Assembly: GCA_900290255.1 (NCBI GenBank)
Contig: OMOD01000111.1
Span: forward strand, 89,021-153,020
Direction of reading: 5' to 3'
DNA length: 64,000 nt
Source of the DNA: Candidatus Sulfotelmatobacter kueseliae
Lineage (GTDB): Bacteria > Acidobacteriota > Terriglobia > Terriglobales > Acidobacteriaceae
Shown here: positions 372-24,724 of the stretch, piece by piece
How positions within the stretch are numbered: the first letter of the stretch is position 1
How the letters are laid out: every line of letters begins with the position of its first letter
Notes under the pieces: generated by a model
Told to the model about the DNA's origin: nothing
Seen by the model: the letters and a program-made list of their open reading frames with translations, nothing else
The model's database searches: none
Program-made: the position numbers and the translations under genes

Positions 372-1040
372 TCATTTCTTGATGCGCACCTGAACGCGCG
401 CGCTTTCCGGCAACGTTCCGTTTAACAATTCGACTTTGCCGTCGCGCACGATCCCTTCGAATTCCTGCGGCAGCTGAGCCGAAGGCTGCGCGGGCGAGCC
501 TGCCCTGAGCAAAGTCGAAGGGTCGCCCGCGCCCGCACGGTCCGCGGACAGGAGTGTCCGCGCCACACGCCCCATGCCCTTGTCCATGGCTTCGTTGGCC
601 AGTTGGTCGGCTTCCTGATTGTGCTCGCGCAGGGCGTGGCCGATGGAAAACCAATCGAGCTGGGCAATCAGCTCTTTGGCGCGCGCGTGCAGATCTTTCA
701 GTGGAGCATTCTTCACCTTGTAAATGCCTTTGATCTGGCGGACGAGCAATTCCGAGTCGCTGATCAGCTTGAGCGCTTTGGGGCCGTGCTGAAGCGCGTA
801 TTCAAGAGCGGCGATCAGGCCTTGATACTCGGCAAAGTTGTTGGTCTGGTGGCCGAGATATTCGCTGAGCGCGGCGACCCGGCGTCCGGCTTCGTCTTGG
901 ATGACCACACCGTAGCCGGCGGGGCCGGGATTGCCGCGTGCGCCCCCGTCGCTGTGAGCAATGAGGTAGCGCTGGGGAGGATTTTCGCGGGACTCGAAAA
1001 GATGGCGGGTGCCGCTGCTGCGGGAGGGATGAGAGGGCAT
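372..1040 (-). CDS. Ribonuclease HI family protein with a repeat-encoded insert
   Basis: 222 residues. The RNase H fold spans about residues 24-155, with the metal-binding acidic residues visible as D31 (SDGGARGNPG), E71 (NNFAEYQG), D95 (ISDSELL) and D145 (NQEADQLANEA). It would hydrolyse RNA in RNA-DNA hybrids. After residue 157 the conserved fold ends and residues about 158-189 (VARTLLSADRAGAGD onward) are encoded by GC-rich palindromic repeat DNA at about 475-575. A short tail (FEGIVRDGKVELLNG) follows and looks like a separate small beta segment. ATG at 1040 has no clear Shine-Dalgarno sequence, so a start inside the first 20 residues is possible. Oriented with the phosphoesterase upstream, with repeat DNA between. 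Confidence 0.85.
   Translation of the reverse strand: MPSHPSRSSGTRHLFESRENPPQRYLIAHSDGGARGNPGPAGYGVVIQDEAGRRVAALSEYLGHQTNNFAEYQGLIAALEYALQHGPKALKLISDSELLVRQIKGIYKVKNAPLKDLHARAKELIAQLDWFSIGHALREHNQEADQLANEAMDKGMGRVARTLLSADRAGAGDPSTLLRAGSPAQPSAQLPQEFEGIVRDGKVELLNGTLPESARVQVRIKK
475..575. repeat. GC-rich palindromic repeat inside the RNase HI-like gene
   Basis: Two nested palindromes lie within the coding frame: CGGGCGAGCC...GGGTCGCCCG at about 491-530, and GCGGACA...TGTCCGC at about 544-561 followed by CGCCACAC. The second matches repeat DNA seen near the end of the dihydrouridine synthase gene (GTGTGGCGCGGGCAC at about 11450). The insert carries no stop in the gene's frame. Confidence 0.7.
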
Positions 1041-1082
1041 GATCGAAGTTTACAACGGCGGGCGGGAACGTTGGCGCGGGCC

Positions 1083-1129
1083 GTCGAGCTTCGCTCGACC
1101 GGACAGCCGGGGGCGGCTGTCCCCACATG
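1083..1129. repeat. Composite palindromic repeat (GTCGAGC unit plus GGACAGCC unit)
   Basis: Between two minus-strand genes. GTCGAGCTTCGCTCGAC (1083-1099) is a perfect palindrome with a three-base loop; it is followed directly by GGACAGCC...GGCTGTCC (1101-1122). The same two units recur next to each other at 59101-59140. The region could fold into two hairpins in either strand's transcript. Confidence 0.75.
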
Positions 1130-1152
1130 GATGTGCTGGCCCCCTGCCCACG

Positions 1153-1923
1153 CTACCGCCCGGCGGCCAGGCGGGTGGCGAGGCGTGGCGGAAGCTTTGC
1201 CTCGAACATGCGGTCCTGCGCGGATTTCAAATTGTAGGGTGTGCGGTGGAAATGAACGACCTGCGCGTCGGTGTCGAACAGGGCGAAAGCGGCGCGCCAG
1301 TCGCCGTCGCGCGGCTGGCCGACCGAGCCCGGATTGATCAAGTAACGTGCGGAAGTCCTGAGCTGGAAGGCGACGGACTCGGCCTTGCCGACGGTGCGAT
1401 ACTCCGGGCGGAAACCGTCGGCGCCCGAGCCGTTGACGAAAAATCCGCCCTGCAGATGGGTGTGCCCAAAAAAAGTCAGGGAGACAGTAAGCGTAACCAG
1501 CGGAGCCAGGGCATCGCCTAGAGAAACAACATACTCATCCTCGTCGTTGGGAGAGCCGTGCACTAACTGCACCTGGGGAAAGTCCGGCAAGGAAACCGGC
1601 CCGTGGGGCAGAGCGCGCAGCCAGTCGAGATTCTCGGGCGTTAATTCATTGCGCGTCCAGATCGCCGCGGTGGCTGCCATAACATTGAAGTCTTCCAGGT
1701 CCATGAGACCGGTAGCCGCCTTGTCGTGATTGCCCCGAACAAAAACCTTGCCCAGGTCGCGGGAACGGTCGGTAACCTCGTTCGGGCTGGCGCCGTATCC
1801 GACGATATCGCCGAGATTGACGACCAGGTCATAAGCTGGAGCGACCGCCAGGCAGGCGTCGAGCGCCTCGAGATTGGCATGAACGTCGCTCAGCAGGAGT
1901 ATGCGCAAGGCGGCCCCGGACAA
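1153..1923 (-). CDS. Calcineurin-like metallophosphoesterase
   Basis: 256 residues. All metal-site motifs of the YfcE/MPP superfamily are visible: D13-x-H15 (SDVHAN), GDIVGYG with D39, GNHD at 64-67, H122 (VHGSP) and GHTH at 153-156. Expected to be a cytoplasmic phosphodiesterase/phosphatase using two metal ions; the substrate cannot be read from sequence. The frame begins with TTG at 1923; a second TTG at 1908 gives LRILLLSDVHANL, which is closer to the usual family N-terminus, so the start is uncertain by five residues. It lies 42 bp downstream of the peptide ABC ATPase on the same strand. Confidence 0.85.
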   Translation of the reverse strand: MSGAALRILLLSDVHANLEALDACLAVAPAYDLVVNLGDIVGYGASPNEVTDRSRDLGKVFVRGNHDKAATGLMDLEDFNVMAATAAIWTRNELTPENLDWLRALPHGPVSLPDFPQVQLVHGSPNDEDEYVVSLGDALAPLVTLTVSLTFFGHTHLQGGFFVNGSGADGFRPEYRTVGKAESVAFQLRTSARYLINPGSVGQPRDGDWRAAFALFDTDAQVVHFHRTPYNLKSAQDRMFEAKLPPRLATRLAAGR

Positions 1924-1965
1924 AGTGGGGATTATAGACCAACGACGACTGCCGTGGGTGTCCGG

Positions 1966-2997
<1,032 letters not shown>

Positions 2998-3050
2998 AGA
3001 CTCATGGTAGCAAGTCAAACCGCCGGCGGGTGGCCAAACTCACCGGAAGC

Positions 3051-3443
3051 CTAATGAAGGAACAATGCTACAGCCATCGCCACAATCGCGAGTTTTACGA
3101 ACCAGCCGGTCGCGTAAGAGGTGACAAACACACGGTGGAGTTTCATGAACGCCGCGTTCGTCAGGATCATGGGCAAAGGGCCAATCAACCAGACCGCAAC
3201 CGCCAGCTTCATCGCACCCGCGAAGGAATGCAGACCCAACCGCGCGCAGACACAGGCAAAGACTCCGCAGGTCAGAAATGGCAGCGGGCTCGTCAGGGCA
3301 ATCGCTTTCGCTTCAGCACCCTGCCGCCAGACTTCCGGATACGTGTAGCGGCGATGTAGCCAATCCCCGGCAAAGAACCAATCCGTCAACGACGTGACAA
3401 TGCCGGCTCCAATGATGATCAGAGCCAGCCGCATCCAGTTCAT
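3051..3443 (-). CDS. Small integral membrane protein (DUF1761-like)
   Basis: 130 residues with about four hydrophobic segments (residues 4-25, 52-68, 76-96, 108-128) and a short charged stretch DWLHRRYTYPEVWRQG after the first. AGGAG six bases before ATG 3443 supports the start. The layout and size resemble DUF1761-type membrane proteins of unknown function, but the family call rests on general appearance. Function unknown; flanked by the SPFH gene upstream and the peptide ABC ATPase downstream on the same strand. Confidence 0.7.
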   Translation of the reverse strand: MNWMRLALIIIGAGIVTSLTDWFFAGDWLHRRYTYPEVWRQGAEAKAIALTSPLPFLTCGVFACVCARLGLHSFAGAMKLAVAVWLIGPLPMILTNAAFMKLHRVFVTSYATGWFVKLAIVAMAVALFLH

Positions 3444-3506
3444 AGCGTGCTCCTATGGAACAGGCATTGTACGCCGCCCCTTCCGGAAGACGGCCCCTGC
3501 CGCCAC

Positions 3507-4358
3507 CTACTGTCCCAGGATTAACGGCAACCCGTTCTTGTTATTGCCGATCACGACAACTTTTGTATTTGCGCTCTTGGCCAGATTCTCGGTGGCCTCA
3601 ATTCCCTTCCACTCGAGGAGCGACGGTGTAATGCCCTGGGCCACGATCTGTTGGAAGTCGCGCACGCCGGCGGCTTCGATGCGCTTGCGCTGCGCCTCCT
3701 GCGTTTCCTTCTGCAGGCGGAAGTTCATGGCCAGAGCTTCCTGCTCGGCTTGCTGCTTGGCTTCAATCGAGGCTTTCAGCGTGGCGGGCAGCTGGATGTC
3801 GCGCAGTAGAACGTTCTCCACGATCAAGCCGCGCTGGTTGAGCTCGGCGGTTACCTGATCGTAGATCTGCTTGGCCACCATCTCGCGTTCGCCCGTATAG
3901 AGAGCGTTCGCGGTATGAGAAGCGGTTGCTTCACGGATGGCGGAGCGCAGCGTCGGTTCGACCACAACGTTTTCGTAGTCGGCCCCGATCTTCTGGAAGA
4001 CTTCTGCGGCCCGGTCGGGATTGAGGTGATAGATGAGCGAGGTGTCGAGGCTCATCATCAGACCTTCGCTGGAAGGAACACTGGCTGATTCCTTGAGGGT
4101 CTGCGTCTGGACGGAAAGCTCATTATTGGTTTTCAGGGGATTGATGAGGTGGATGCCCTCGCCCAGGGTTTCGGTGGATTGCACCTTCCCGAACAGCGTG
4201 AGAACACCCACGTGGCCTGTACCCACCTTGGTTACGGAACTGAAGAGCAGGATTACGAGCAGGAAGGCAAGGATGCCCAGGCCGATTAAGCGCAGGAGGC
4301 CGCCGCTGTGGCCGCCGCCGTCAATAACTCTGCCGCGAGATGGATCAAAGATCGTCAT
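3507..4358 (-). CDS. Prohibitin-like SPFH-domain membrane protein
   Basis: 283 residues. One N-terminal membrane segment (about residues 24-43, LIGLGILAFLLVILLFSSV) is followed by an SPFH/band-7 domain (VGTGHVGVLTLFGKVQ ... GIHLINPL ... VVVEPTLRSAIREATA) and a helical region rich in Ala/Glu (ASIEAKQQAEQEALAMNFRL). This is the prohibitin/HflK-HflC architecture: a membrane-anchored oligomer that scaffolds microdomains and can hold the FtsH protease in check. No hflK/hflC pair or ftsH neighbour here. Start ATG at 4358 with a G-rich tract upstream. Confidence 0.88.
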   Translation of the reverse strand: MTIFDPSRGRVIDGGGHSGGLLRLIGLGILAFLLVILLFSSVTKVGTGHVGVLTLFGKVQSTETLGEGIHLINPLKTNNELSVQTQTLKESASVPSSEGLMMSLDTSLIYHLNPDRAAEVFQKIGADYENVVVEPTLRSAIREATASHTANALYTGEREMVAKQIYDQVTAELNQRGLIVENVLLRDIQLPATLKASIEAKQQAEQEALAMNFRLQKETQEAQRKRIEAAGVRDFQQIVAQGITPSLLEWKGIEATENLAKSANTKVVVIGNNKNGLPLILGQ

Positions 4359-4403
4359 GATGGTTTTTCCCCCAGGCGATTATAGGCCGGGACGATGCGC
4401 GGG

Positions 4404-4507
4404 GGTTGTCTTGGGGGTTGGGTCTTGGGCTTTGAGCACCGAAGCTGATTCTGAAACCCAGTACCTAACACCAACGCCTAAGACCCAAGACCTACGACCT
4501 ACGACCC
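4404..4507. repeat. Intergenic inverted word repeat (TTGGGTCTTGGG / CCTAAGACCCAAG)
   Basis: A G/T-rich arm (GGGTTGGGTCTTGGGC near 4412-4430) faces a C/A-rich arm (CCTAAGACCCAAGACCTACGACC, near 4477-4500) that itself repeats the word ACCTACGACC. The whole lies between the divergent SPFH and MoaD-like genes and could form a long imperfect hairpin. No coding signal seen. Confidence 0.5.
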
Positions 4508-4553
4508 GGCTTGAATCTTGCCCGACAGCTGCCGCATCTCTTACAGTAAGTCT

Positions 4554-4832
4554 ATGAGCAAGATTCACATTCCTACACCCCTGCGGCAGTATGTGGGCAA
4601 GCAGACTGCGGTCGAAGTGCCTGGGACGACCGTCGGCGAGGCGATGAGCGCGCTGGTCGAACGGCATCCTGACTTGCGCAAGCACCTTTATACCGAAGAG
4701 GGCAAGCTGCGCGCTTTCGTGAATCTGTACGTCAACGATGAAGACATCCGCTACCTGCAGAAGGAGGCGACCGCGCTGAAGGAAGGTGATAACATTTCGA
4801 TTGTGCCTTCCATCGCGGGAGGCGCGGCCTGA
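4554..4832 (+). CDS. MoaD/ThiS-family sulfur carrier (CysO-like ubiquitin-fold protein)
   Basis: 92 residues with the beta-grasp pattern of MoaD/ThiS proteins: KIHIPTPLRQYVG, TVGEAMSALVERHP, LYVNDEDIRYL and the terminal strand ISIVPSIAGG. Such proteins are adenylated and thiocarboxylated on a terminal Gly-Gly by an E1-like enzyme and donate sulfur. Here GG is followed by two alanines, so the tail would need trimming before activation. The gene lies 119 bp before a MoeZ-type E1/rhodanese fusion, the arrangement seen for mycobacterial CysO-MoeZ sulfur transfer to cysteine. A longer reading from 4518 is possible, but the fold begins at ATG 4554. Confidence 0.85.
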   Translation: MSKIHIPTPLRQYVGKQTAVEVPGTTVGEAMSALVERHPDLRKHLYTEEGKLRAFVNLYVNDEDIRYLQKEATALKEGDNISIVPSIAGGAA

Positions 4833-4847
4833 GTGGGGATTTGGGGG

Positions 4848-4941
4848 CATTTCCGATTGTCAATTTCCGATTTTCGATTGAAAAAGCCAAATCTCTTGTG
4901 CACTGCCTAATCGGCAATCGGAAATCGACAATCGAAAATTC
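4848..4941. repeat. Intergenic inverted word repeat (AATCGGAAATCGACAATCG)
   Basis: The left arm CCGATTGTCAATTTCCGATT (about 4853-4872) is answered on the right by AATCGGAAATCGACAATCG (about 4915-4933), and each arm repeats the word TTTCCGATT/AATCGAAAA. AT content is far above the surrounding genes. It sits between the sulfur carrier and the MoeZ gene. Confidence 0.6.
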
Positions 4942-4951
4942 CTAAGAGTTT

Positions 4952-6115
4952 ATGGCCACCACTACAGAAATACCAGTCACGCTGAGCAAAGACGAAATCC
5001 TGCGCTACTCGCGGCATCTGATCATGCCCGAGGTGGGCATGGAGGGGCAGCAGAAGCTCAAGGCGGCGCGCGTGCTGTGCATCGGGACAGGCGGACTCGG
5101 CTCGCCGCTGGCCATGTATCTGACGGCCGCGGGCGTGGGCACGCTGGGGCTGGTGGATTTCGATGTGGTGGATTCCTCGAATCTGCAGCGGCAGATCATT
5201 CACTCGACGGCCGATGTTGGGCGCAAGAAACTCGACTCGGCGGCGGACAAGCTGAAGGGGATCAATCCCTATCTGAATCTGCGCCTGTTTGACACCAAGC
5301 TGACGAGCGCGAACGCGCTCGATCTGTTTCGCGAGTTCGACATCATCGCCGACGGCACCGACAATTTTCCGACTCGCTATCTGGTGAACGACGCCTGCGT
5401 GCTCACGGGCAAGCCGAATGTCTACGGATCGGTTTTCCGCTTCGAGGGACAGGCCAGCGTGTTCGCGACCAAGGAAGGGCCGTGCTACCGATGCCTGTAT
5501 CCTGAGCCACCGCCGCCGGGCGTGGTGCCCTCGTGCGCCGAAGGCGGCGTGCTGGGGATTTTGCCCGGGCTGGTGGGTGTGATGCAGGCGACCGAAGCCA
5601 TCAAACTGATTCTGGGCGTGGGCGAGCCGCTGATCGGACGGCTGCTGCTGGTGGATGCGCTGGGTATGCGGTTCCGCGAACTCAAGCTGCGCAAGAATCC
5701 CGATTGCCCGGTGTGCGGCACCCATCCCACGGTCACGAAGCTGATCGACTACAACGAATTCTGCGGCATTCGCGGAGAGGAGAAACCGGTGGCGAGCGGA
5801 GTTCCGGAAATCCAGGTGGAGGAACTGAAGCGGCGGCTGGATGCGAAAGAAGATCTCTTCGTTCTCGACGTGCGCGAGCCGCACGAATACCAGATCTGCA
5901 ACCTGGGCGGATATCTGATTCCGCTGAACGATCTGCCCAAGCGCGTGCATGAGCTCGATTCGAGCCGCGAGATCGTGGTGCATTGCAAGATGGGCGGCCG
6001 CAGCGCCAAAGCGGTGGCCTTTCTGCAGCAGGCAGGATTCAAGAAGGTGCACAATCTCGCCGGAGGGATCACGGCCTGGTCCGACCGCGTGGATTCGCGG
6101 ATACCGAAGTACTGA
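4952..6115 (+). CDS. moeZ: Molybdopterin/sulfur-carrier adenylyltransferase with C-terminal rhodanese domain
   Basis: 387 residues in two domains. Residues about 12-275 are an E1-like ThiF/MoeB domain: nucleotide loop GTGGLGSP (45-52), DVVDSSNLQRQ, zinc ligands C178/C181 and C252/C255, and the conserved PSCAEGG cysteine C195. Residues about 285-385 are a rhodanese domain with active-site C345 in VVHCKMGGRS. The fusion activates a MoaD/ThiS/CysO-type carrier by adenylation and then supplies sulfur from the rhodanese cysteine, as MOCS3 and mycobacterial MoeZ do. The likely carrier is encoded just upstream. The start is ATG at 4952 after AGAGTTT. Confidence 0.93.
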   Translation: MATTTEIPVTLSKDEILRYSRHLIMPEVGMEGQQKLKAARVLCIGTGGLGSPLAMYLTAAGVGTLGLVDFDVVDSSNLQRQIIHSTADVGRKKLDSAADKLKGINPYLNLRLFDTKLTSANALDLFREFDIIADGTDNFPTRYLVNDACVLTGKPNVYGSVFRFEGQASVFATKEGPCYRCLYPEPPPPGVVPSCAEGGVLGILPGLVGVMQATEAIKLILGVGEPLIGRLLLVDALGMRFRELKLRKNPDCPVCGTHPTVTKLIDYNEFCGIRGEEKPVASGVPEIQVEELKRRLDAKEDLFVLDVREPHEYQICNLGGYLIPLNDLPKRVHELDSSREIVVHCKMGGRSAKAVAFLQQAGFKKVHNLAGGITAWSDRVDSRIPKY

Positions 6116-6147
6116 GTCAGTTGCCAGTAGTCAGTTGTCAGTTTTTG

Positions 6148-6236
6148 ACGGGGAGTGCGAGAGCGCTCCCCGGTTCTTGTCCGTCGCCGAAACGGCGGGT
6201 TCGTATCAGGGCATCGCTTCAGCGATGCCACCAGCC
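6148..6236. repeat. Cluster of short hairpins between moeZ and the PEGA gene
   Basis: Three small palindromes follow one another: GGGGAGTGCGAGAGCGCTCCCC (imperfect, 6150-6171), CCGTCGCCGAAACGGCGG (6181-6198) and GCATCGCTTCAGCGATGC (6211-6228). The last type (word-tcag-word) recurs at 35554-35573 and 16311-16330. They could act as a transcription end for moeZ, but no T-run follows. Confidence 0.5.
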
Positions 6237-6334
6237 TAGATTGCCGTTGAACATCCTTTCTCCGGGGGACATAATAAGCGGTTCCCGGATTCTCTCCCCT
6301 GTTTATCCTTCAAACTAGACCCGGAGGGCCCCCC

Positions 6335-7234: not shown

Positions 7235-7337
7235 TAGGAGCTCGTCTCTTAGATTCCTCCAATCTCTACGGGCCAGCCGGCGCGCAATCCTCGGCAAGTT
7301 TCTCTCCATCCCGCCGATAGACACAGATGTGAGCCTT

Positions 7338-10216: not shown

Positions 10217-11488
10217 GTGAAGAAGTTTTGGGACAACTCGGTCAATGCCACGTGCGGAGCAGGCACTCCTGTCGGCGAAATCGCGGCGCCGAGTGCGTGT
10301 GAGGCCGCGACGCTGAGACCGGTCCCGGCCAGCCTTTTGGTCGGCAGCGCGACCATCCGCCCGGCGACGGTGCTGGCGCCCATGGCCGGCGTGACCGACA
10401 CCGTCTTCCGCCGCTTCATTCGCAACCTCGGCGGATGCGGCCTGATCATGACCGAGTTCACTTCGGCCGACGGCGTTCTCCGCGCCGCTCGAACGAATAA
10501 CGACAAGAAGGCCCGTCGCTTTCTCCACTTCTACGAAGACGAACATCCCATCTCGGCGCAGCTTTTCGGCAGCGATCCGCGCGTGATGGCCGAAGCTGCG
10601 CGCATGGTCGAAGGACTCGGCTTCGATTTGGTTGACCTCAACCTGGGTTGCCCGGCGAAGAAAGTCGTGAAGTGCAACGGAGGCTCGGGCTTGCTGCGCG
10701 ATCTGCCCGCCATCGGCAAGATTTTCGAAGCGGTCCGCGCCGCCGTGAACATTCCCTTCACAGTGAAGTTCCGCGCCGGATGGAATGACGAAGAAATCGT
10801 CTGCGTTGAACTGGCCCGCATGGCCGAGTCTTGCGGCCTCGCGGCGGTCGCGCTTCACGCCCGCACGCGGGAGCAAGGCTACAGCGGCCAGGCACGCTGG
10901 GAATGGATCGCTGCGGTCAAAAATGCCGTGAAGATTCCGGTCATCGGCAACGGTGACATCCGCACGCCCGAAGACGCCTGCAGCATGGTCACGCAAACCG
11001 GATGCGACGCCGTCATGATCGGCCGCAGCGCGCCATCAAATCCGTGGATCTTCCGGCAGATCGAGCAGTATTGCGCTGGGAGCACCACGGTTCGTGCAGG
11101 GGCGGACGCCCTCGTCCGCCCGGTCGAGCAGAGTTCGACAGCCGCGGCTGGCAGCGTCTTCGATAGGCAGGAGTCGACATGGCCTTCGGCCACCCCGGAC
11201 GAGGGCGTCCGGGGCTCCACGAAAGCCTACGAGGAGCCTACCGAACTCGACCGCCACCAGATGATCCGCACCTACTTCCAGATGCTGATCGAAGAGGAAC
11301 TCCCCGACGCCTCCGGCAAGATGAAACAGTTTGCCTCGTGGTTCACCCACGGCGTTCCCGGCGGCGCGGGCCTGCGCAAGGCGATCTATGAATCGAAAAG
11401 CGCAGAGGAGATTCTGGCGCGGGTGGAACAATTCTTCGAAGCAGGATTGTGTGGCGCGGGCACTCTTGCCCGCGAAAGCTGTCCCTAA
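10217..11488 (+). CDS. dusB: tRNA-dihydrouridine synthase with repeat-encoded inserts
   Basis: 423 residues from GTG at 10217 (TTG at 10163 is also in frame). TIM-barrel FMN enzyme that reduces uridine in tRNA: LAPMAGVTDTVFRRF, LNLGCPAKKVVKCNGGSG with the catalytic Cys, TVKFRAGW, ALHARTREQGYSG, GNGDIRTPEDA and MIGRSAPSNPWIF. The helical C-terminal domain (RHQMIRTYFQMLIEEELPD, MKQFASWFTHGVPGGAGLRK) is present. Between them residues about 294-334 ([15 protein letters not shown] to EGVRGSTKAY) are encoded by two GC palindromes, and the last dozen residues (CGAGTLARESCP) by another repeat. The N-terminal 40 residues are also unusual and partly repeat-like (CGAGTPVGE). Confidence 0.9.
   Translation: MKKFWDNSVNATCGAGTPVGEIAAPSACEAATLRPVPASLLVGSATIRPATVLAPMAGVTDTVFRRFIRNLGGCGLIMTEFTSADGVLRAARTNNDKKARRFLHFYEDEHPISAQLFGSDPRVMAEAARMVEGLGFDLVDLNLGCPAKKVVKCNGGSGLLRDLPAIGKIFEAVRAAVNIPFTVKFRAGWNDEEIVCVELARMAESCGLAAVALHARTREQGYSGQARWEWIAAVKNAVKIPVIGNGDIRTPEDACSMVTQTGCDAVMIGRSAPSNPWIFRQIEQYCAGSTTVRAGADALVRPVEQSSTAAAGSVFDRQESTWPSATPDEGVRGSTKAYEEPTELDRHQMIRTYFQMLIEEELPDASGKMKQFASWFTHGVPGGAGLRKAIYESKSAEEILARVEQFFEAGLCGAGTLARESCP
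11100..11214. repeat. Bipartite palindromic repeat inside the dihydrouridine synthase gene
   Basis: GGGCGGAC-N6-GTCCGCCC (11100-11121) and CCCCGGAC-N6-GTCCGGGG (11193-11214) are joined by a spacer holding GTCGAG...TTCGAC. The same pair of palindromes, same order in the coding direction, occurs in clpB at 13893-13937. Both copies are read in frame without stops. Confidence 0.8.
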
Positions 11489-11560: not shown

Positions 11561-12532
11561 TCATGACGCCCGGCTCTCTACCCCCCGCGCCACCATCTTC
11601 CCCGCCTCGTCCCTCTCCACATACGCCCACGGTGTCTTCGGATCGTGGGTAAAGACCGTCAGCCACCTCTCCGGAATCGCCTGCGCGTAGTACTGCTTCT
11701 TGCTCTCGATGGTATCGAGCGGATACAGGTCGAATCCCATGCCCCAGGTGAGGTCAATGTGCGCGGTCGTGGGGATCAGATCGGAAATGTAGCAGGCGGT
11801 GGCTTCATAGGGATGCTCGTCTCGCGCTTTATTGCAATCGCGTTCCGCGATTGCGCGCGGCGACTCGCCCAGGTCCTTCGGCGGCGAAAAACGAGCCGCC
11901 TCAGGATGACAACCGCGGATGATAATTCCCTGCATGTGCGCCGTGTGGCCGCGGAAGGTCTTGACCGAAATGCCGGGGACGATTTCCTCGCCGCCCTTGA
12001 GCAGTGTCATCTGCCCGCTCGCAACCAAAGGGCCGTAGTTGTCGGGGAGATAGCTGACGGCATCGCGTTCGCTCGGCCGCCGCGCGTATTGCCATTCGCC
12101 TTCGGGCGCATAATACTTCGCCCGCGGAAACGTGGCCACAATCTTGCCATTCTTGTCGCGCACCGTGTTCCATCCACAATGATCGAAGTGCAGATGCGAG
12201 TTGATGACGATGTCAATGTCTTCCGGCGCGATGCCTGCGGCAGAGAGATTGTCGAGCAGTTTGGCGGGCTGCCCGTAGAACTTGACCATGCGCTCGGAAA
12301 GCTTGTTGCCCATGCCGGTTTCTACCAGCAACGTCTGTTTGCCGGTGCGCGGATTTTCGGTGCGAATGACCAGCGAGTTGAGCCCGGCGGTCACATAGTT
12401 GCGCTCGTCCACCTCAACCTTGCGCGACCACATGACTTTGGGAATCACGCCAAAGAATGCGCCGCCGTCGAGCGGGTAGGTGCCGTCGGAGAAGATGCTG
12501 AGTTCGAAATCGCCAAGTGTGAGGCGGTGCAT
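11561..12532 (-). CDS. MBL-fold metallo-hydrolase with a repeat-encoded insert
   Basis: 323 residues. The metallo-beta-lactamase signature HLHFDHCG (near residue 113) and downstream metal ligands GHTAHMQG and the histidine in TTAHIDLTWG/FTHDPK are visible. Such stand-alone MBL hydrolases resemble quorum-quenching lactonases and related esterases; substrate unknown. Residues about 203-240 (CHPEAARFSPPKDLGE onward to NKARDEHPYEAT) are encoded by repeat DNA at 11815-11925 and interrupt the strand after GIIIRG, before ACYISDLIPT. Without that stretch the protein would be of normal size. It converges on dusB. Confidence 0.85.
   Translation of the reverse strand: MHRLTLGDFELSIFSDGTYPLDGGAFFGVIPKVMWSRKVEVDERNYVTAGLNSLVIRTENPRTGKQTLLVETGMGNKLSERMVKFYGQPAKLLDNLSAAGIAPEDIDIVINSHLHFDHCGWNTVRDKNGKIVATFPRAKYYAPEGEWQYARRPSERDAVSYLPDNYGPLVASGQMTLLKGGEEIVPGISVKTFRGHTAHMQGIIIRGCHPEAARFSPPKDLGESPRAIAERDCNKARDEHPYEATACYISDLIPTTAHIDLTWGMGFDLYPLDTIESKKQYYAQAIPERWLTVFTHDPKTPWAYVERDEAGKMVARGVESRAS
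11815..11925. repeat. CATCCTGA-family repeat inside the MBL hydrolase gene
   Basis: Contains the palindrome GCAATCGCGTTCCGCGATTGC (imperfect, 11834-11854), followed by CCTTCGGCGGCGAAAAACGA and GCCGCCTCAGGATGACAAC. The last phrase also occurs at about 335-353 (GCCGCTCAGGATGACAAC) in non-coding DNA. In the gene's frame it reads as CHPEAARFSPPKDLGE. Confidence 0.7.
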
Positions 12533-13440: not shown

Positions 13441-16134
<2,694 letters not shown>

Positions 16135-16267: not shown

Positions 16268-16427
16268 GTTCAGGGGCTGAAGCCCGGGCTCTTTTTCGCA
16301 CTTGACGGCACGGCTGAAGCCGTGCCCTTCGCATTCGTGGCGCTTAACGCGGCGCTAAAGCGCCGCTCTTCCACATTGCCGCTCGGCTTCGCCTTCGCGG
16401 GGGCGGACGGGGGCGTCCGCCCCTACA
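16268..16427. repeat. Row of hairpins between clpB and hsp20
   Basis: Successive palindromes: GGGCTGAAGCCC (16273-16284), GGCACGGCTGAAGCCGTGCC (16307-16326), GCGGCGCTAAAGCGCCGC (16350-16367) and GGGCGGAC-N6-GTCCGCCC (16401-16422). The last is the same unit found inside clpB and dusB. The group could end hsp20 transcription; no poly-T follows. Confidence 0.6.
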
Positions 16428-16939: not shown

Positions 16940-17044
16940 GGCTAAATCCTCCTTCAGAATTTGGTGCTTCTTGATTTCGCAACCGGCCTGGAACCTTCTC
17001 TCAGGCTGCGGTCACATGATTAGACGCATAGTTATAGTAAATGA

Positions 17045-17073
17045 AGCATAAAATATGAGTGTATCATTGTCAA
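17045..17073 (-). promoter_or_regulatory. Sigma-70-type promoter of hsp20
   Basis: On the minus strand TTGACA (17073-17068) is followed after exactly 17 bases by TATGCT (17050-17045). Transcription would start near 17038, leaving a leader of about 100 bases before the hsp20 ATG. The region is much richer in A/T than its surroundings. No CIRCE element (TTAGCACTC inverted repeat) was seen. Confidence 0.65.
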
Positions 17074-17096
17074 TAAATGGATATGCTTATTTTACA

Positions 17097-18302: not shown

Positions 18303-18344
18303 GGGAACATCTTAAATGTTGGCTGCGCTAATGCTGGCTCCGCT

Positions 18345-18640
18345 GCTCAATGTTCATTTGCGTTGTCATCCTTCGCGAAGCGAAGGATCTGTGGACCCGT
18401 CGGCGGCTTCACGAGCCGTCAGTAAAGTCGGGCTGTGCCCGACCGGACAGCCGAGAGCCTGCCTTGAGTTTGCCGAAGGGGCGGCTGTCCCTGCATTGTC
18501 GGGGCGTCATCCCGAAGCCCCGCGCTTTCACCAGCGGGGCGAGGGATCTCGCGTGCGGCGCGCCGAGACAGCCCACGCGAGATCCTTCGCTCCGCCTGAA
18601 AAACGGCTGCGCTCAGGAGACGCCGCCGAAGGGAGATAGG
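18345..18640. repeat. Repeat-rich intergenic block
   Basis: About 300 bases without a gene, made of repeat modules: CCTTCGCGAAGCGAAGG (18370-18386), GTCGGGCTGTGCCCGAC (18427-18443), GGACAGCCG...CGGCTGTCC (18445-18490, with CCTTGAGTTTGCCGAAGG inside), a CATCCCGAAGCCCCGCGC to GCGCTCAGGAGACG arm pair (about 18509-18622), and GCGAGATCC/GGATCTCGC words. The CATCCCGA module is shared with the MITE-like element at 31563. Confidence 0.7.
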
Positions 18641-18673
18641 CAGTCTTCAAGAAAGGTAAGCCCTGGACAGCTT

Positions 18674-19801
18674 CTAGCTGGCGGCCTGCTCAGACGGGAC
18701 GGCGGGCGCCTCATGTTTGGCCGCCGCGCGCGAGGTCATTTCATAGCGGGCGGCTTCGAGATCAGCCAGCAATGAGTCGAGGACGACCATCGGCAGTTCC
18801 GCTCCCCAACCGTCGAGTTCCTCTTCGGTCCAGGCGCCGTTCAGGCGAATGGCGCCGGTGATGTCTTCCGGGAAGGCTAGCCGGAAGTCACCTTCGCGAA
18901 TCAAGATGTCGCCGATCATGCGGCCGGTGTGAATCTCGTAAACCCGGCGGCTGGCCTGGCTTCCTGCATTGGTCAAACATAGGTAAACTTCGCCGGCTTC
19001 GGCAAACTCGGCGCGGTAGTACCACGCCTGGGGCGCGTCGATTTTGGGATGATGGCGCCGCGGGTGGTGGACGGTTGGCTTCTGGTCGACGAGTTCATCG
19101 GCAGGATTCAGATAAAGAACGCGCTGACAGGAATCGCAATAGACAGTCTGCTGGCCGGAGCGGACCTCGTTGTAAGTCTGGGGCCGCAGCATAACCTGGC
19201 AGGCCATGCACTTGTGATCGCGGACTTCCGAGATGCCGGTGCCGCGGAACTTCGCCACGCGTTCGTAATGGCGTAGAAGATCGGCGTCGATGCCGGCACG
19301 AAGCTGGTCGCGTTTGGCACGCCATTCGGCGAGGAGTTTTTCGTCTTCGGCGGTGCGCTGGCGCGCCTGCTCCTTCTCTTTCTCAATTTCCGCGGCTTCG
19401 GCTTTGAGTTCGGCCTGCGCGGCCTTGACCTCATTGGCGCGAGTGTCGGCGTCCACCATGAGCTCGAGAATCTTGTCTTCGGTGGAGGCGATCTCCTTTT
19501 CCGCGAACTGAATCTCGTGCAGCAGCGCCTTGTATTGATCGTTGGTCTTTACGTCAAGCGACTGATCGCGATACTTGGAAATTTTGCTGCGCAAGTCGGT
19601 GATGGAAGTTTCGTGCTTGCGCCGGGCGGCATCGTCGGCCTTGGTGGCGGCCTGGGCCTTTTCGATCTGGGCCTTGGTGCCGGCAAGTTTCTGTTCGATC
19701 GCCGCGACGCGTTTGGGAAATTCGGCGATTTCGTCCTGCAGGCGGCGAATTTCCTTATCGGCTTCTTGCAGGCGCAGCAGGTTTTCGATATCAGGAAGCA
19801 T
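18674..19801 (-). CDS. Coiled-coil zinc-ribbon protein (CT398/C4-type) with C-terminal extension
   Basis: 375 residues from ATG 19801; earlier in-frame starts to 19858 would add residues before the conserved LPDIENLLRLQEADKEI. Residues about 5-175 are a long antiparallel coiled-coil hairpin rich in Lys/Glu/Ala, followed by a four-cysteine zinc ribbon (CMACQVMLRP ... YCDSCQRVLY, about 195-230). This is the family of DksA/GreA-like hairpin proteins such as Chlamydia CT398. About 130 extra residues follow (APQAWYYRAEFAEAGEVYLC ... RMIGDILIREGDFRLAF), giving a second folded domain of unknown role. Cytoplasmic. Confidence 0.8.
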   Translation of the reverse strand: MLPDIENLLRLQEADKEIRRLQDEIAEFPKRVAAIEQKLAGTKAQIEKAQAATKADDAARRKHETSITDLRSKISKYRDQSLDVKTNDQYKALLHEIQFAEKEIASTEDKILELMVDADTRANEVKAAQAELKAEAAEIEKEKEQARQRTAEDEKLLAEWRAKRDQLRAGIDADLLRHYERVAKFRGTGISEVRDHKCMACQVMLRPQTYNEVRSGQQTVYCDSCQRVLYLNPADELVDQKPTVHHPRRHHPKIDAPQAWYYRAEFAEAGEVYLCLTNAGSQASRRVYEIHTGRMIGDILIREGDFRLAFPEDITGAIRLNGAWTEEELDGWGAELPMVVLDSLLADLEAARYEMTSRAAAKHEAPAVPSEQAAS

Positions 19802-19947
19802 CCGGCATTGTGTCTGAATTGATTCTAGCATGTGGGCCGGACATCCACGGAAGGACACTGGCGGGACCGTCCGGACTGGCAGGCAGGTGTAAACTCATTG
19901 TTTTGTGCTGGATCGGTTCGCTGCTACTTCTCTTCTGTGAGGGTTTC

Positions 19948-22197
19948 GTGAAAGGGCATTCTTTTCTTCGCACTAGCCTTGCCTGGTTGATTTCCATTCC
20001 TGTTCTGGTCGCCGCGGGGTCGGCGCGGGGGCAAACCGCAACCACTAAGTCGCTGACCATCGAAGCGATCTACCAGCCCGGAGGATTGGCCGGCCGCGGT
20101 CCGGAGAACGTGGAGTGGAGCCCGGACGGAACCAGGCTCTCGTTTGTGCAGCGCGAGGAAAAAGGAGAGAAAGGCGAACTGTGGTACGTAGACACGGCCA
20201 CGGGCGAAAAGAGGGTACTGGTGAGCGCCGAGAAACTGGCATCGCTCGCCCCGGACGTCAACCGGGTCAGGAACGAGCGGGAAAAGGAACGGCTGACCCG
20301 TTACCACGTTGCGGCATATTGGTGGGCGCCGGACTCCAAACACCTGCTGTTCGACTCCGAGGGCCAGCTCTGGCTCTACGACCTGGCGACGGCGACCGCG
20401 GTGCAATTTACTTCCGCGCCCGATCCCAGCGGAGATCCAGAATTTTCGCCTGACGGCAGCCATGTGGCCTACGTGCGCAAGCACAATCTGTATGTCCGGC
20501 CGGTGAGCGGCAAGAGCGAAAAGCAGCTCACCAAAGACACCGGCGACAATCTTCTGAACGGCGATATTGACTGGGTCTACGCCGAGGAACTGGAGGTGCG
20601 CAGCAACTATTTCTGGTCGCCCGACAGCAAAGAAATTGTTTTTCTGCACATGGACGAGACCAAGGTGCCCACGTATCCCATCACTGACTGGATGCCGACG
20701 CACCCCAGCGTGGATCAGGAGAAGTATCCCAAAGTGGGCGATCCGAATCCGGTAGTCAAGCTGGGCGTGGTGGATGCCGGCGGCGGGAAGGTCCGCTGGA
20801 TTTCACTGGGCAGCGACGAAGATACCTATATTCCACGGTTCGGGTGGGTGCGCGAGGGAGTGATCTGGGCCGAAGTGCTGAACCGCATTCAGGACAAGAT
20901 GGACCTGTATTTCGTTGACGCTAAATCGGGGAAGTCGCGAATCGTGCTGACCGAGGCTACGCCGGGGGCGTGGATTGATTTTGAGCAGGTGGAAGTTCGC
21001 TTTCTGCCCTTTCGCGGCCAGTTCCTGTGGCCCAGCTGGCGCGATGGGAACATGCATCTCTATCTCTACAGTTTTGACAAACAGAATCCGATGGCAGCGG
21101 ACGCCAAGCTGGAGCGGCAACTGACGCAAGGCGATTTCGAAGTGGAGGGAATCGAGGGAGTGGATGAAGCTGCGGGCACGGTGTTTTTCGCTGCAAACAA
21201 GGATGATCCCCGGCAACAGCATATCTACTCGCTGCAGCTGGATGGCTCGGGGCTCAAGGTTCTCACCTCGGAGGAGGGAGAGCATTCCGCGGCCTTCAGC
21301 GATGACGGGAAGCACTACATGCACACATATTCCAGCCCGCAGACTGCTCAGCGCGTTTCCTTGTGCGCAGTCGGAGGCCCATGCAGCCCGGTATGGCAGG
21401 CGCGAGGGGCGCGAGACGAGATTACCGAATATGGACTGCGCCCGCCAAAATATTTGCAGTTCACGGCGGACGATGGGACGACGCTGTACGGAAAGTTGTT
21501 ACTCCCCCCGGATCCGCCGGCCGGCGCAAAGATTCCGGTGATTGTGAGCATCTATGGCGGGCCGACCGCGCAGGAGGTGAGGAAGAGCACGCCCGACGCT
21601 TTCGACGAAATCATGGCGCGGAAGGGCTTCGCCATTTTTACGCTGGACAATCGCGGCGCAGCGGGGCGTGATCGCAAGTTCCAGACGGCGATCCGGCACG
21701 AGTTCGGGGCGGTCGAATTAAAGGATCAGCTCACGGCGCTGGACCAACTGCTGGCGCAGTATCCGCAGCTTGACCAGGATCGCGTCGGCATTTGGGGCTG
21801 GTCCTACGGCGGGTTCATGACGCTCTATGCCATGACGCATTCGGACCGTTTTCGCGCGGGCGTATCCGTAGCTCCGGTGACCGAGTGGCAGAACTACGAC
21901 TCGATTTACACCGAGCGCTACATGGGATTGCTCAAGGACAACAAACAAGGCTACGACAAGTCGGATGTGACGAAATCCGCCGACAAGCTGCATGGGGCGT
22001 TACTGCTGGCCCAGGGCACGGGCGATGACAACGTGCACTTTCAGAACAGCGTCCAGATGGTAGATGCGCTGATCAAGGCGGGAAAGCAATTCCGCCTGAT
22101 GGTCTATCCCAACAAGACGCACAGCATCGCCGGCAAAGACGCACGCGTGCACCTGTTCACCATGATTGAGGAACATTTTGAGCGGGAGTTGAAGTAA
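19948..22197 (+). CDS. Exported dipeptidyl peptidase IV-type serine peptidase (S9B)
   Basis: 749 residues from GTG 19948, preceded by GAGGG; this start gives a clean signal peptide (SFLRTSLAWLISIPVLVAAG), whereas the longer frame from 19810 does not. The eight-bladed propeller is marked by repeated WSPDG/FSPDG phrases and contains the double-Glu substrate-docking motif in DWVYAEELEVR. The alpha/beta hydrolase domain has the nucleophile in GWSYGGFM, Asp in GTGDDNVHF and His in NKTHSIAG. It should remove N-terminal X-Pro dipeptides in the periplasm. Divergent from the zinc-ribbon gene with about 145 bp between. Confidence 0.92.
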   Translation: MKGHSFLRTSLAWLISIPVLVAAGSARGQTATTKSLTIEAIYQPGGLAGRGPENVEWSPDGTRLSFVQREEKGEKGELWYVDTATGEKRVLVSAEKLASLAPDVNRVRNEREKERLTRYHVAAYWWAPDSKHLLFDSEGQLWLYDLATATAVQFTSAPDPSGDPEFSPDGSHVAYVRKHNLYVRPVSGKSEKQLTKDTGDNLLNGDIDWVYAEELEVRSNYFWSPDSKEIVFLHMDETKVPTYPITDWMPTHPSVDQEKYPKVGDPNPVVKLGVVDAGGGKVRWISLGSDEDTYIPRFGWVREGVIWAEVLNRIQDKMDLYFVDAKSGKSRIVLTEATPGAWIDFEQVEVRFLPFRGQFLWPSWRDGNMHLYLYSFDKQNPMAADAKLERQLTQGDFEVEGIEGVDEAAGTVFFAANKDDPRQQHIYSLQLDGSGLKVLTSEEGEHSAAFSDDGKHYMHTYSSPQTAQRVSLCAVGGPCSPVWQARGARDEITEYGLRPPKYLQFTADDGTTLYGKLLLPPDPPAGAKIPVIVSIYGGPTAQEVRKSTPDAFDEIMARKGFAIFTLDNRGAAGRDRKFQTAIRHEFGAVELKDQLTALDQLLAQYPQLDQDRVGIWGWSYGGFMTLYAMTHSDRFRAGVSVAPVTEWQNYDSIYTERYMGLLKDNKQGYDKSDVTKSADKLHGALLLAQGTGDDNVHFQNSVQMVDALIKAGKQFRLMVYPNKTHSIAGKDARVHLFTMIEEHFERELK

Positions 22198-22260
22198 AAC
22201 AGGGGCAGTGGTCAGTGAAAACCAAAAGACTATGGCGGCTTCGGTTTCACCGGAGCTACT

Positions 22261-22638
22261 TTATTTGTGTCTGCCGGAACCTTTGCGCGGGGTTTCCTTG
22301 GAGGAGCTTTCTTTCGACGTGCTTTCCTTCGACGAACTCTCTTTGGACGAGCTTTCTTTCGAGCCGCTGTCCGGTTTGGATTTGTCGTCCTTCTTATCTT
22401 TCGAGGACGAATCGCGCGAGGAAGGATCACCGCTGCCGGCGGATCCGGGCGAAGAAGTTTTCTTCGCGTAGTCGGTCACGTACCAGCCAGAGCCTTTGAA
22501 CTGGACGGCGGGTGCGGAGATCATCTGCTCGACCTGGCCGCCGCAGTCGGGGCACTTCTTGACCATCTTATCCGAGAACTTCTGGATTTTTTCGAAGCGG
22601 TGGCCGCACTTCTTACACTGATATTCGTAAAGTGGCAT
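22261..22638 (-). CDS. FmdB-family zinc-ribbon protein with Ser/Lys/Glu repeat tail
   Basis: 125 residues. MPLYEYQCKKCGHRFEKIQK plus CPDCGGQ form the FmdB zinc ribbon, followed by APAVQFKGSGWYVTDYAKK. From about residue 64 the tail is low-complexity and includes five near-repeats of SSSKE/STSKE. FmdB proteins were first seen as putative regulators of amidase/formamidase genes; their true role is unclear. The highly repetitive DNA (GGACGAGCTTTCTTTCGA-type) makes this region prone to slippage. Convergent with the DPP-IV gene. Confidence 0.88.
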   Translation of the reverse strand: MPLYEYQCKKCGHRFEKIQKFSDKMVKKCPDCGGQVEQMISAPAVQFKGSGWYVTDYAKKTSSPGSAGSGDPSSRDSSSKDKKDDKSKPDSGSKESSSKESSSKESTSKESSSKETPRKGSGRHK

Positions 22639-22740
22639 GAGTGTGAGACGGTTAGGGGCTGTCTGCGTTCCGATTCTATGGGTGCGGGTTCGGTCGCGTC
22701 AATTTACGCTCGTCCGGCGGAATGATGATCGATCGGTCCC

Positions 22741-23277
22741 TTACCGATCCTGCCGGACCGCGATGGCTGAGGTGCATCCGGCGCAGGGATCGTTCTTGAT
22801 GTAGCGGTAGAAGCGAGGCTCGCCTCGCCCGATCCAGTAGCGGGAACGGTAGTCGTCGGTCCCGGGCCCTCGAGTCAGAAAGCTGAAGAAGACATGATGG
22901 GAAGGCTGGACGACAATCCCCGCATGCCCCGGCCACACGATCACGTCGCCGGGTTGCGGCTTTGAGACACGGCGAAATCCTTCCGCGCCGTCGTAGAGAT
23001 CGTCAGAACTCGCATAGATGTAAGGGAAACCGGCGCGACCGTAAATCTCATGAACCAGGTGAGAACAATCGTGGGCGGAATCGCGCCTCACTTTGGAGTG
23101 GAGCGCCACAGCGACCACAGACAGCCCGTCGTGGCGAGTGAGCGTCTTTCGGGCGTGGCTCAGGTTGGCGGTCGCTCGCGGAGGGCCGCTGTCTTCGAGC
23201 GCCTGCTGCGCTGACAAGAGATATAGAGCCAGGCTGCAGAAGACTGCCACGGCCGCCGTCTTTACCGTACTCCGCAT
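22741..23277 (-). CDS. Exported NlpC/P60-like cysteine hydrolase
   Basis: 178 residues. Signal sequence (about 1-22, VKTAAVAVFCSLALYLLSAQQ), then an NlpC/P60 fold with catalytic C71 (AHDCSHLVHEIYGRAGFPY) and H118 (GDVIVWPGHAGIVV). The family cleaves peptidoglycan stem peptides or related amide bonds. The C-terminal segment ends with DPCAGCTS, a possible metal or disulfide pair. Minus strand, 102 bp beyond the FmdB start. Confidence 0.82.
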   Translation of the reverse strand: MRSTVKTAAVAVFCSLALYLLSAQQALEDSGPPRATANLSHARKTLTRHDGLSVVAVALHSKVRRDSAHDCSHLVHEIYGRAGFPYIYASSDDLYDGAEGFRRVSKPQPGDVIVWPGHAGIVVQPSHHVFFSFLTRGPGTDDYRSRYWIGRGEPRFYRYIKNDPCAGCTSAIAVRQDR

Positions 23278-23359
23278 GGTTTAAAGTGTGATGCGGAAAT
23301 CGACGGCGCGGGTAGTTACGGTAGTGCAAGGCCGATTCGCAGGTCACCGGCGACTGCAA

Positions 23360-23689
23360 CTATTTGCCCAGCAGGCGTTTGGGCGCGGTGTTGCGCCAGG
23401 CGGCGTGAATGGCCTTCGTCAGCGCCTCCTTCTTGGCCGATTTCAGAATCACGCTGGTGGCGCCGCGGCGTCCCCACGCGCCCTTTACCGGGATGAACAC
23501 GTCGGGATAGTCCTTCGAAAAGTAATGCTGCTCTTCGGGCGAGAGCTTGACCATGCCGCGGGATTTATCGGGATACCCGAGTGTGGCGAAGATTTTTCCC
23601 GCGACGCGGAAGTCGGGGTGGTCCATGTGCGAGTGCTCCTCGGCCTTGGGCAGAGAGAGAGCGATTTTGCGGAAGTCGTTGGCGGTCAT
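23360..23689 (-). CDS. MmcQ/YjbR family DNA-binding-like protein
   Basis: 109 residues from ATG 23689, with AGGAG placed seven bases before. MTANDFRKIALSLPKAEEHSHMDHPDFRVAGKIFATL, then MVKLSPEEQHYF and WGRRGATSVILKSA are the family's CyaY-like fold. Members are small cytoplasmic proteins of unknown function sometimes annotated as DNA-binding. Alone, between NlpC/P60 and rsmI. Confidence 0.88.
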   Translation of the reverse strand: MTANDFRKIALSLPKAEEHSHMDHPDFRVAGKIFATLGYPDKSRGMVKLSPEEQHYFSKDYPDVFIPVKGAWGRRGATSVILKSAKKEALTKAIHAAWRNTAPKRLLGK

Positions 23690-23745
23690 GGGCGAACTCC
23701 TGGCGCGGGGTACGCTAGCATAACCGCGCAATCGGTCGAAAACCG

Positions 23746-23838
23746 AGATTTCAGATTGTAGATTTCAGATTGCATATTGGGAAGCCTTTTGGAATCTGCA
23801 ATCTTCAATCTTCAATCTGCAATCCAAAATTGGCAATC
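23746..23838. repeat. Intergenic inverted word repeat (GATTTCAGATTG / CAATCTTCAATC)
   Basis: GATTTCAGATTGTAGATTTC and AGATTGCATATTGG on the left face AATCTGCAATCTTCAATCTT, CAATCTGCAATCC and AAAATTGGCAATCC on the right. It lies between the divergent MmcQ-like and rsmI genes and is the same style of element as at 4848 and 16143. Confidence 0.6.
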
Positions 23839-23863
23839 CTCATGCGGTGATAGACTTCCGGTC

Positions 23864-24724
23864 ATGACGCAAGCTGGGCCAACTCTGTATCTGGTGGCGA
23901 CGCCGATCGGCAATCTCGAGGACATCACCCTGCGGGCGCTGCGCGTGCTCAAAGAAGTGGATGTGATTGCTTGCGAAGACACGCGGCAGACGCAGAAGCT
24001 GCTCAATCATTATGCGATCGCGACCCGCACCACCAGCTATCACGAGCACAACGAGATGACACGAGCGGCGGAACTGGTCAAACAGATGCAGGAGGGCGCG
24101 AGCGTCGCGCTGGTCACCGATGCGGGCATGCCCGGGATTTCCGATCCAGGGTATCGGCTGATTACGTTGGCGATCCGGCATCATGTGCCGGTGGTGCCGG
24201 TGCCGGGTGCGTCGGCGTTTCTGGCGGCGCTGGTGGCGAGCGGATTGCCTACCGATTCGTTTCGCTTCAGCGGATTCTTGCCCCCCAAGCGCGGGGAGCG
24301 GCGGGCGGCTCTCGAAGCGATCAGGAATTCGCCGCGGACGGCGGTCTTCTACGAGGCTCCGCACCGCATTATCGAGACGCTCACCGACGTTGTGGAAGTG
24401 CTTGGGATCGCCCGACACGTGGTGGTGGCGCGGGAGGTGACCAAACTGCACGAGGAATTTCTGCGCGGGAGCGCGAGCGAAGTGCTGACGGATCTGAAGT
24501 CGCGCGAGGCAGTGAAGGGCGAGATCACCCTGCTGATCGGCAAGGCGGAGCCGCAAGAAGCCCATGGAGCGGCGGACGCCCCCGTCCGCCCCAGCGTATG
24601 CGAGCGCGTGGCGCAGATCATGGCCGAAGAGAAGCTTGACGAGAAGTCCGCGCTGAAAAAAGTGGCAAAGGAGCGGGGGGTCTCGAAGAGCGAGGCGTAC
24701 CGGGAGTTGCAGCGCGGGAAGTAA
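23864..24724 (+). CDS. rsmI: 16S rRNA 2'-O-ribose C1402 methyltransferase with a repeat-encoded insert
   Basis: 286 residues. ATG 23864 gives the usual N-terminus TLYLVATPIGNLEDITLRAL. Tetrapyrrole-methylase fold with ACEDTRQTQKLLNHY, VALVTDAGMPGISDPGYRL, VPVPGASAFLAAL, FLPPKRGERR and FYEAPHRIIETL. Methylates the decoding-centre nucleotide C1402. Near residues 234-245 the phrase AHGAADAPVRPSV is encoded by the palindrome GGCGGAC-N6-GTCCGCC (24571-24590), splitting the linker before the C-terminal helical region (ERVAQIMAEEKLDEKSALKK). An intergenic copy follows directly downstream. Confidence 0.94.
   Translation: MTQAGPTLYLVATPIGNLEDITLRALRVLKEVDVIACEDTRQTQKLLNHYAIATRTTSYHEHNEMTRAAELVKQMQEGASVALVTDAGMPGISDPGYRLITLAIRHHVPVVPVPGASAFLAALVASGLPTDSFRFSGFLPPKRGERRAALEAIRNSPRTAVFYEAPHRIIETLTDVVEVLGIARHVVVAREVTKLHEEFLRGSASEVLTDLKSREAVKGEITLLIGKAEPQEAHGAADAPVRPSVCERVAQIMAEEKLDEKSALKKVAKERGVSKSEAYRELQRGK
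24571..24590. repeat. GGCGGAC palindrome inside rsmI
   Basis: GGCGGAC-N6-GTCCGCC, preceded by GGAGC, is read in frame as AADAPVRP. It is identical over about 24 bases to the intergenic copy starting at 24730 (GGAGCGGCGGACGCCCCCGT). Confidence 0.85.

Follow-up and report, generated by a model that had tools for sequence, protein, structure and literature searches.

Does a mobile palindromic repeat lie in frame within conserved genes of an acidobacterium, and if so, what kind of repeat is it and how does it change once it is there? This question is raised by a stretch of 64,000 nucleotides from Candidatus Sulfotelmatobacter kueseliae (assembly GCA_900290255.1, contig OMOD01000111.1, positions 89,021 to 153,020), referred to here as the window. 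It belongs to a genome of 5.39 Mb in 198 contigs. Judged by ClpB (88%), the nearest relative with a name is Acidobacteriaceae bacterium palsa_246, a metagenome-assembled genome (MAG) and probably identical to genome G013 of this genus, as both have the ClpB gene at one and the same contig position. A first-pass annotation of the window had placed palindromic sequences in six genes, encoding an RNase HI-like protein, a peptide ABC transporter ATPase, Dus, a metallo-beta-lactamase-fold (MBL) hydrolase, ClpB, and RsmI. All six are found at these places, each in a host gene with an open frame. One shared kind of repeat, as the annotation had assumed, is present in four hosts, namely repetitive extragenic palindromes (REPs) in the ABC ATPase, Dus, ClpB, and RsmI genes, whereas the MBL gene carries a family D repeat and the RNase H gene a family C repeat together with a class E REP. 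In all six genes, an in-frame repeat-derived segment stands where orthologues have nothing or other content. Comparison of these orthologues led to an observation that appears to be new: at one protein site, REPs of different classes occur in different species at the same nucleotide, on the same strand, and in the same frame, with both hairpin arms changed together. Such class differences between species had not been foreseen in the first-pass annotation.

We consider it highly probable that the elements are REPs, partly arranged in REPIN-like pairs (REP doublets forming hairpins) and served by REP-associated tyrosine transposases (RAYTs), whose in-frame copies in loops and linkers survive and are translated, and that hairpins at old sites are replaced in place. 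Non-autonomous mobile hairpins would be moved by RAYTs encoded in the same genome, and in this Acidobacteriota genus a sizeable minority of them lie within genes. Copies that disrupt the frame or land in a folded core would be purged; in-frame copies in linkers or loops would survive and yield short, flexible peptide segments upon translation. Where an insertion is old, as in the RsmI linker and the Dus loop, another REP class would replace the hairpin in place. Because both arms would be replaced together, the linker of a conserved enzyme would change in jumps.

The typical element consists of a GTGG, GGAG, or GTAG foot, 9-bp hairpin arms, and a CCCY loop. Hairpins of the form CG-CCCY-CG with at least 6/7 further arm pairs were sought in the window and 60 further stretches of its genome (1.264 Mb in total), with the reversed sequence as control. 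There are 120 such hairpins compared to one in the reversed sequence, which rules out chance palindromes as their origin. The feet are GTGG in 51, GGAG in 37, and GTAG in 23 cases (111/120). The window contains 12 of the 120 REPs, six within genes and six elsewhere, and two main arm classes are found there, class A (GGGCGGACG, CGGCGGACG or CCCCGGACG) and class B (GGACAGCCG); in several class A or B REPs, another small hairpin (GTCGAGCGAAGCTCGAC and variants) comes next. In the whole genome, class A has 157 matches with up to two mismatches (control: 9). A general scan for the same feet with any hairpin revealed further classes (266 hits, 76 in the reversed control). Singletons account for 72 of the 120 REPs, and 16 of 26 close neighbour pairs (<200 nt) are inverted with outward feet, the close inverted arrangement of REPINs. 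By eye, 11 of these 16 inverted pairs combine two class A arms, one of GGCGGA and one of CCCGGA type. Outside the genus, none of the 13 strict-pattern matches listed is such a hairpin, since at most 3/7 arm positions pair in each. Family C repeats (CCTGCCCTGAGCAAAGTCGAAGG) were also seen inside the loops of REPs or other hairpins, at 488-532 of the window, in RsmI of G001 and G018 (L137, L142), and in the ABC ATPase loops of G010, G011, G025, and G027. Strong flanking stems accompany 3 of 22 family C copies in the own-genome sample compared to 28 of 4200 control positions, with additional likely cases recognized by eye.

The six host genes were compared across up to 30 genomes of the genus. 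In the RsmI linker of nine genomes, the hairpin loop, three or four nucleotides long, starts at linker nucleotide 35, and the arms belong to three classes (GGCGGACG in five, GGACGGGCG in three, and GGACAGCCG in one genome). A fourth arm class, GGACGGAC with a nested family C repeat, is present in two genomes, where the loop starts at nucleotide 34; two further genomes have the start at nucleotide 32, one codon earlier. The codons ahead of the loop are similar across the classes (GAT GCT CAC and the like). As the loop start is shared across arm classes, strand, frame, and register are constant while both arms change. A comparable situation is found in Dus, where 14 of 19 readable loops carry an element. 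By eye, these are class A in six genomes, class B in five, class B on the left with class A on the right in one (G022), family D in one, and another repeat in one; five loops have none, among them the short loop of G017. In 7 of the 12 carriers of A, B, or the mixed pair, the element lies at the same seven-residue distance from QYC.

The simplest reading of these class differences would be an old insertion whose hairpin was later replaced in place. Tentatively, and with somewhat less than even confidence, we propose that another REP class takes the place of a resident genic hairpin as a whole, with nucleotide position, strand, and frame unchanged. RAYT-driven hairpin exchange or a short gene conversion may bring this about, and the loops of conserved enzymes would then evolve by taking in pieces of the mobile elements current in the genome. 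The title of a 1988 review, in the reference list of PMC3116915, already links REP evolution to gene conversion. The main rival, which we regard as unlikely but as the strongest of the alternatives, is that each species gained its own REP without any replacement, because these loops attract insertions as hot spots or because nowhere else are insertions tolerated. Independent gain would fit ClpB well, because the class A pairs of G000 and G010 have different adjoining bases and no insert is present in 27 of 29 loci, and it would fit the five empty Dus loops, which occur even between near relatives (G004 is empty, G024 carries class A). It accounts less readily for the identical RsmI start nucleotide, strand, and frame in three arm classes with similar preceding codons, for the equidistant A and B carriers of Dus, and for the mixed pair of G022. 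A single ancestral hairpin in which both arms drifted through paired mutations, as when quasi-palindrome template switching makes one arm a copy of its partner, would need no other REP copy and would explain why the arms remain complementary though their sequence differs. Yet the arms at these sites mostly equal genome-wide REP classes (GGACAGC, GGGCGGA, CCCCGGA, GGACGGG) and are not arbitrary, so that such drift seems the least probable of these three rival routes, the third being allele transfer.

Whole genes could also have moved between species by homologous recombination together with their REP class, scrambling the species-tree pattern. This would agree with the distribution of Dus classes on a concatenated tree of six proteins, on which 11 changes are required for 19 genomes (shuffled mean 10.95), indicating no phylogenetic signal. 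However, agreement of the classes with the gene tree of Dus is lacking as well (12 changes; mean of shuffled labels 11.03), and allele transfer would still require a source of the class change; we therefore judge it improbable, ranking it below independent insertion and slightly above drift. Replacement in place remains the preferred explanation for RsmI and Dus.

The orthologue alignments that the first-pass annotation had proposed as a check bear out insertion for three hosts, with 27/29 empty loci for ClpB, 5/19 genus members and 11/11 members of other genera without an insert for Dus, and 14/30 empty loci for MBL. For RsmI, ABC ATPase, and RNase H they reveal repeat content, but the loops vary in length and have mixed content across the genus. 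The ClpB insert lies in the loop after TSNIGSQFL and is present only in the window genome and G010 among the genus loci covering this loop; it is absent from the 25 of 80 database loci aligned. When ClpB is aligned with its best-matching solved structure, the alignment is interrupted at the insert (727, resuming at 762), and in an AlphaFold2 model (19 sequences; mean predicted local distance difference test score (pLDDT) 79, predicted template modelling score 0.49) residues 733-751 have a pLDDT below 50. In Dus, all 19 frames continue through the loop into the conserved C-terminus, and the best match to a solved DusB stops at residue 286, just before the insert, with one other chain reaching 305. 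Several Dus orthologues (window about 11450-11488; L100-L117) end in a tail like LCGAG.LARE, which resembles a class E REP read to the stop codon, and two have a piece similar to this class E-like tail near the N-terminus. In the RsmI linker, stems scoring at least 7 occur in 14 of 30 genomes, although that of G020 covers the whole loop and is likely due to chance, and stems are better than codon shuffles at the 5% level in 10 of 30; a solved relative aligns across the linker with gaps. About 13 of 30 ABC ATPase loops, counted by eye, read as class B on the other strand. MBL has inserts of several kinds in 15 of 30 genomes and a short loop in one.

The suggestion of a protein-invading repeat family that keeps the frame and settles mostly in loops is right. 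Of the 120 REPs in the own-genome sample, called genes contain 34, while 82 are intergenic and 4 lie at a gene edge. The 34 genic copies are distributed over 24 genes, all of which have a Pfam match (E up to 1e-3, in one gene up to 1e-5); hosts by Pfam domain include UvrD (three REPs), MutS, MnmE, GltX, MoaA, and two ThiE-like genes. Many inserts lie between Pfam domains or at their edges; those in UvrD, MutS, MoaA, MnmE, and an aminotransferase stand inside the Pfam model as an insertion. In other genus members, 59 REPs were found in 60 stretches, 11 inside genes, 1 at an edge, and 47 between genes. These stretches were chosen through a strict 28-mer search of 61 genomes, which gave few matches per genome, and represent the palindromic-looking matches among those listed, with a few omitted. 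A scan of eight host proteins of the relatives, Dus and ABC ATPase excepted, gave Pfam matches for seven. Other classes and families also occur inside genes (class E 8/26, family C 4/18, class F 2/34). REPs in coding sequence are about 11- to 14-fold rarer than the coding share predicts (odds 0.093 and 0.074), a depletion that purging of frame-breaking or core insertions would cause. The in-frame inserts are presumably translated as peptide segments.

Counting by frame and strand, another check that had been proposed, shows that the frames are used unequally. One frame, read as ADALVRP or VGTAA, accounts for 18 of 45 genic REPs compared to one in six expected (p = 1.7e-4), and it is also favoured in the own genome (12/34, p = 0.007), with one REP per gene (11/24, p = 8e-4), in the own genome outside the window (9/28, p = 0.03), in the relatives (6/11, p = 0.005), and after removal of the window copies (15/39, p = 9e-4; three of these correspond, in Dus or ABC orthologues, to sites of the window, counted among the 39). 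The other five frames all occur (5, 1, 9, 8, and 4 of 45), by which a strict single frame is rejected, and orientation is unbiased (24 versus 21). Thus, of the single preferred orientation and frame proposed at first, only the favoured frame remains, and this preference is a statistical bias and no rule.

The genome contains 11 matches to the Y1_Tnp profile PF01797, 10 of them over the cut-off, and the HxH motif is present in all 11 open reading frames (ORFs). Ten of these were tested against NCBIfam, L090 being the ORF outside this test; eight pass NF047646 (REP-associated tyrosine transposase), L095 falls 0.3 bit short of the cut-off, and L089 is IS200-like. Inverted hairpins of one class flank 5 of the 11 loci, including both classes of the window. 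Class B REPs flank L095 around C1:38400, class A pairs flank the RAYT at C25:15400-15888 on both sides, class E REPs enclose L097, and the hairpins that flank L091 and L096 belong to two further classes. This arrangement suggests that the insertions were made by RAYTs of the same genome. The features of GTAG-type REPs are therefore present, namely the foot tetranucleotide in 111/120 copies, a high dispersed copy number, and RAYT genes with flanking inverted REPs. An extragenic location does not apply throughout, given the 34 genic copies and the 4 at gene edges; it is part of the REP name and no criterion in the available part of PMC3733652, where Table 1 has intragenic units for both superfamilies. 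Within C25:15266-17826 (L329), the class A-flanked RAYT adjoins a gltX-like gene that bears two in-frame class A REPs.

Rickettsia palindromic elements are palindromes inserted in frame in proteins, and the first-pass annotation had named them as the nearest kind. In-frame placement in proteins is indeed shared with them. The GTAG-type feet and the RAYT genes enclosed by hairpins of a single class, however, place the repeats much nearer to REPs and REPINs, and a pure Rickettsia-type element is rejected on this evidence; that the repeats are of the Rickettsia kind and unrelated to REPs is hardly credible. In the portion of PMC3733652 available, RPE-4 and RPE-6 are classed as CGTC type, without transposase association, so that the present repeats are set apart from them by classification.

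Several points weigh against the proposed course of events. RsmI labels on the concatenated tree of 30 genomes, with empty loci counted, require 13 changes compared to a shuffled mean of 14.74 (227/2000 shuffles as low), this tree including some RsmI loop columns, and on the gene tree without loop columns they require 12 compared to 14.84 (85/5000 as low), which is some phylogenetic signal. Among the 16 element-bearing genomes only, 8 changes are required and 2311 of 5000 shuffles are as low, indicating no signal, and the result for the gene tree with loop columns (9 changes, 0/2000 as low) is circular because these columns were left in the tree. In these labels, remnants in G014, G022, and G036 were treated as one class by eye. 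The RNase H linker is variable throughout, and its open frame ends within the linker in 6 of 30 loci (G004, G006, G014, G025, G029, G032), so the short C-terminal piece is not universally kept; this is the weakest of the six cases, and not every decorated site is kept whole. The frame bias comes from few REPs, and members of one pair are not independent. Only 3 REPs, none of them in a gene, were found in 400 kb of five relatives, which indicates that REP density varies by species. The own genome is a MAG with an estimated contamination of 8.46%; the contigs for its 60 stretches were picked via known REP or RAYT matches, the last stretches being partly placed on matches; and genes were called with our own codon model and no standard caller (950 genes, 81.6% coding).

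Table 1. Repeats and host genes in the window (positions count from its first nucleotide)
Feature	Position	Strand	
RNase HI-like host gene; repeat-derived linker after RNase H domain	372..1040	-	
Class E REP (GTGG foot, CTCC loop), RNase H linker, in frame	543..566	-	
GC-rich stem with family C palindrome (499-521) in its loop	488..532	+	
Class B REP, intergenic	1101..1126	-	
Peptide ABC transporter ATPase host gene	1966..3018	-	
Class B REP, ABC ATPase N-terminal variable loop	2891..2916	+	
Dus (tRNA-dihydrouridine synthase) host gene	10217..11488	+	
Class A inverted pair in Dus, left REP (ADALVRP), foot GCAG	11096..11121	+	
Class A inverted pair in Dus, right REP (DEGVRGST)	11193..11218	-	
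Metallo-beta-lactamase-fold hydrolase (MBL) host gene	11561..12532	-	
Family D repeat (CATCC...GGATG type) in MBL, in frame	11815..11925	.	
ClpB host gene	13441..16134	-	
Class A REP (CCCCGGACG arm) in ClpB	13889..13914	+	
Class A REP (GGGCGGACG arm) in ClpB, GGADALVRP	13916..13941	-	
Class A REP, intergenic	16401..16426	-	
RsmI (16S rRNA methyltransferase) host gene	23864..24724	+	
Class A REP in RsmI linker, ADAPVRP	24566..24591	+	
Class A REP directly past RsmI stop codon	24730..24755	+	
Class B REP, intergenic inverted pair, left member	59097..59122	+	
Class B REP, intergenic inverted pair, right member	59196..59221	-	
Class B REP, intergenic, one arm mismatch	60741..60766	+	

Apart from these repeats, a short protein encoded at 22261-22638 of the window, which we take to be zinc-ribbon-like, has a C-terminal tandem Ser/Lys/Glu repeat with 15-nt units.

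Unlike most intergenic copies, REPs at orthologous protein sites have a fixed reference against which their change can be followed. If replacement in place is true, the old question of REP class turnover would become directly testable, and mobile DNA would have a route for altering linkers in conserved proteins, Dus and RsmI among them, again and again while the proteins stay intact. Alignments and annotations of such genomes contain element-derived peptide segments and call for caution.

The kind of repeat itself is known, and the class differences at fixed sites across the genus are the part that is worth a second look. REPs inside genes of several species, including repair genes, are described in the available sections of Di Nocera 2013 (PMC3733652), along with a recB gene in which two Xanthomonas species bear unlike REPs at roughly one position; for Koribacter, these sections mention only three transposases flanked by terminal inverted repeats. 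For Solibacter usitatus, the part seen of a 2018 HuH survey gives about 600 copies of a transposase-linked structure (PMC6006769), and RepRanger 2025 (PMC12306157), in its available portion, has nothing on REPs within genes of this phylum. Searches for Acidobacteria REPs or palindromic repeats, intragenic REPINs, in-frame REPs, and the orthoswitch, in a literature covering few subscription journals, showed no report of the present case among the papers listed. The elements resemble the GTAG-type REPs, as excerpted from PMC3733652, in their foot, hairpin, inverted dimers, RAYT association, and single or paired insertions into ORFs, and also in hosts such as UvrD and tRNA-related enzymes, for which linkers and loops are suggested there. 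In contrast to the cases in those excerpts, the present ones come from an Acidobacteriota genus, the comparison spans six hosts in as many as 30 genomes, classes differ while the register is kept, and there is a frame bias. A close parallel, according to the passages available from Nunvar 2013 (PMC3686654), is the REP 'orthoswitch', in which the REPs beside orthologous RAYT genes differ in class between related strains, by a mechanism given there as unknown. Both concern orthologous places that bear different REP classes, but the REPs of the orthoswitch flank RAYT genes, whereas those described here occupy sites within protein-coding genes.

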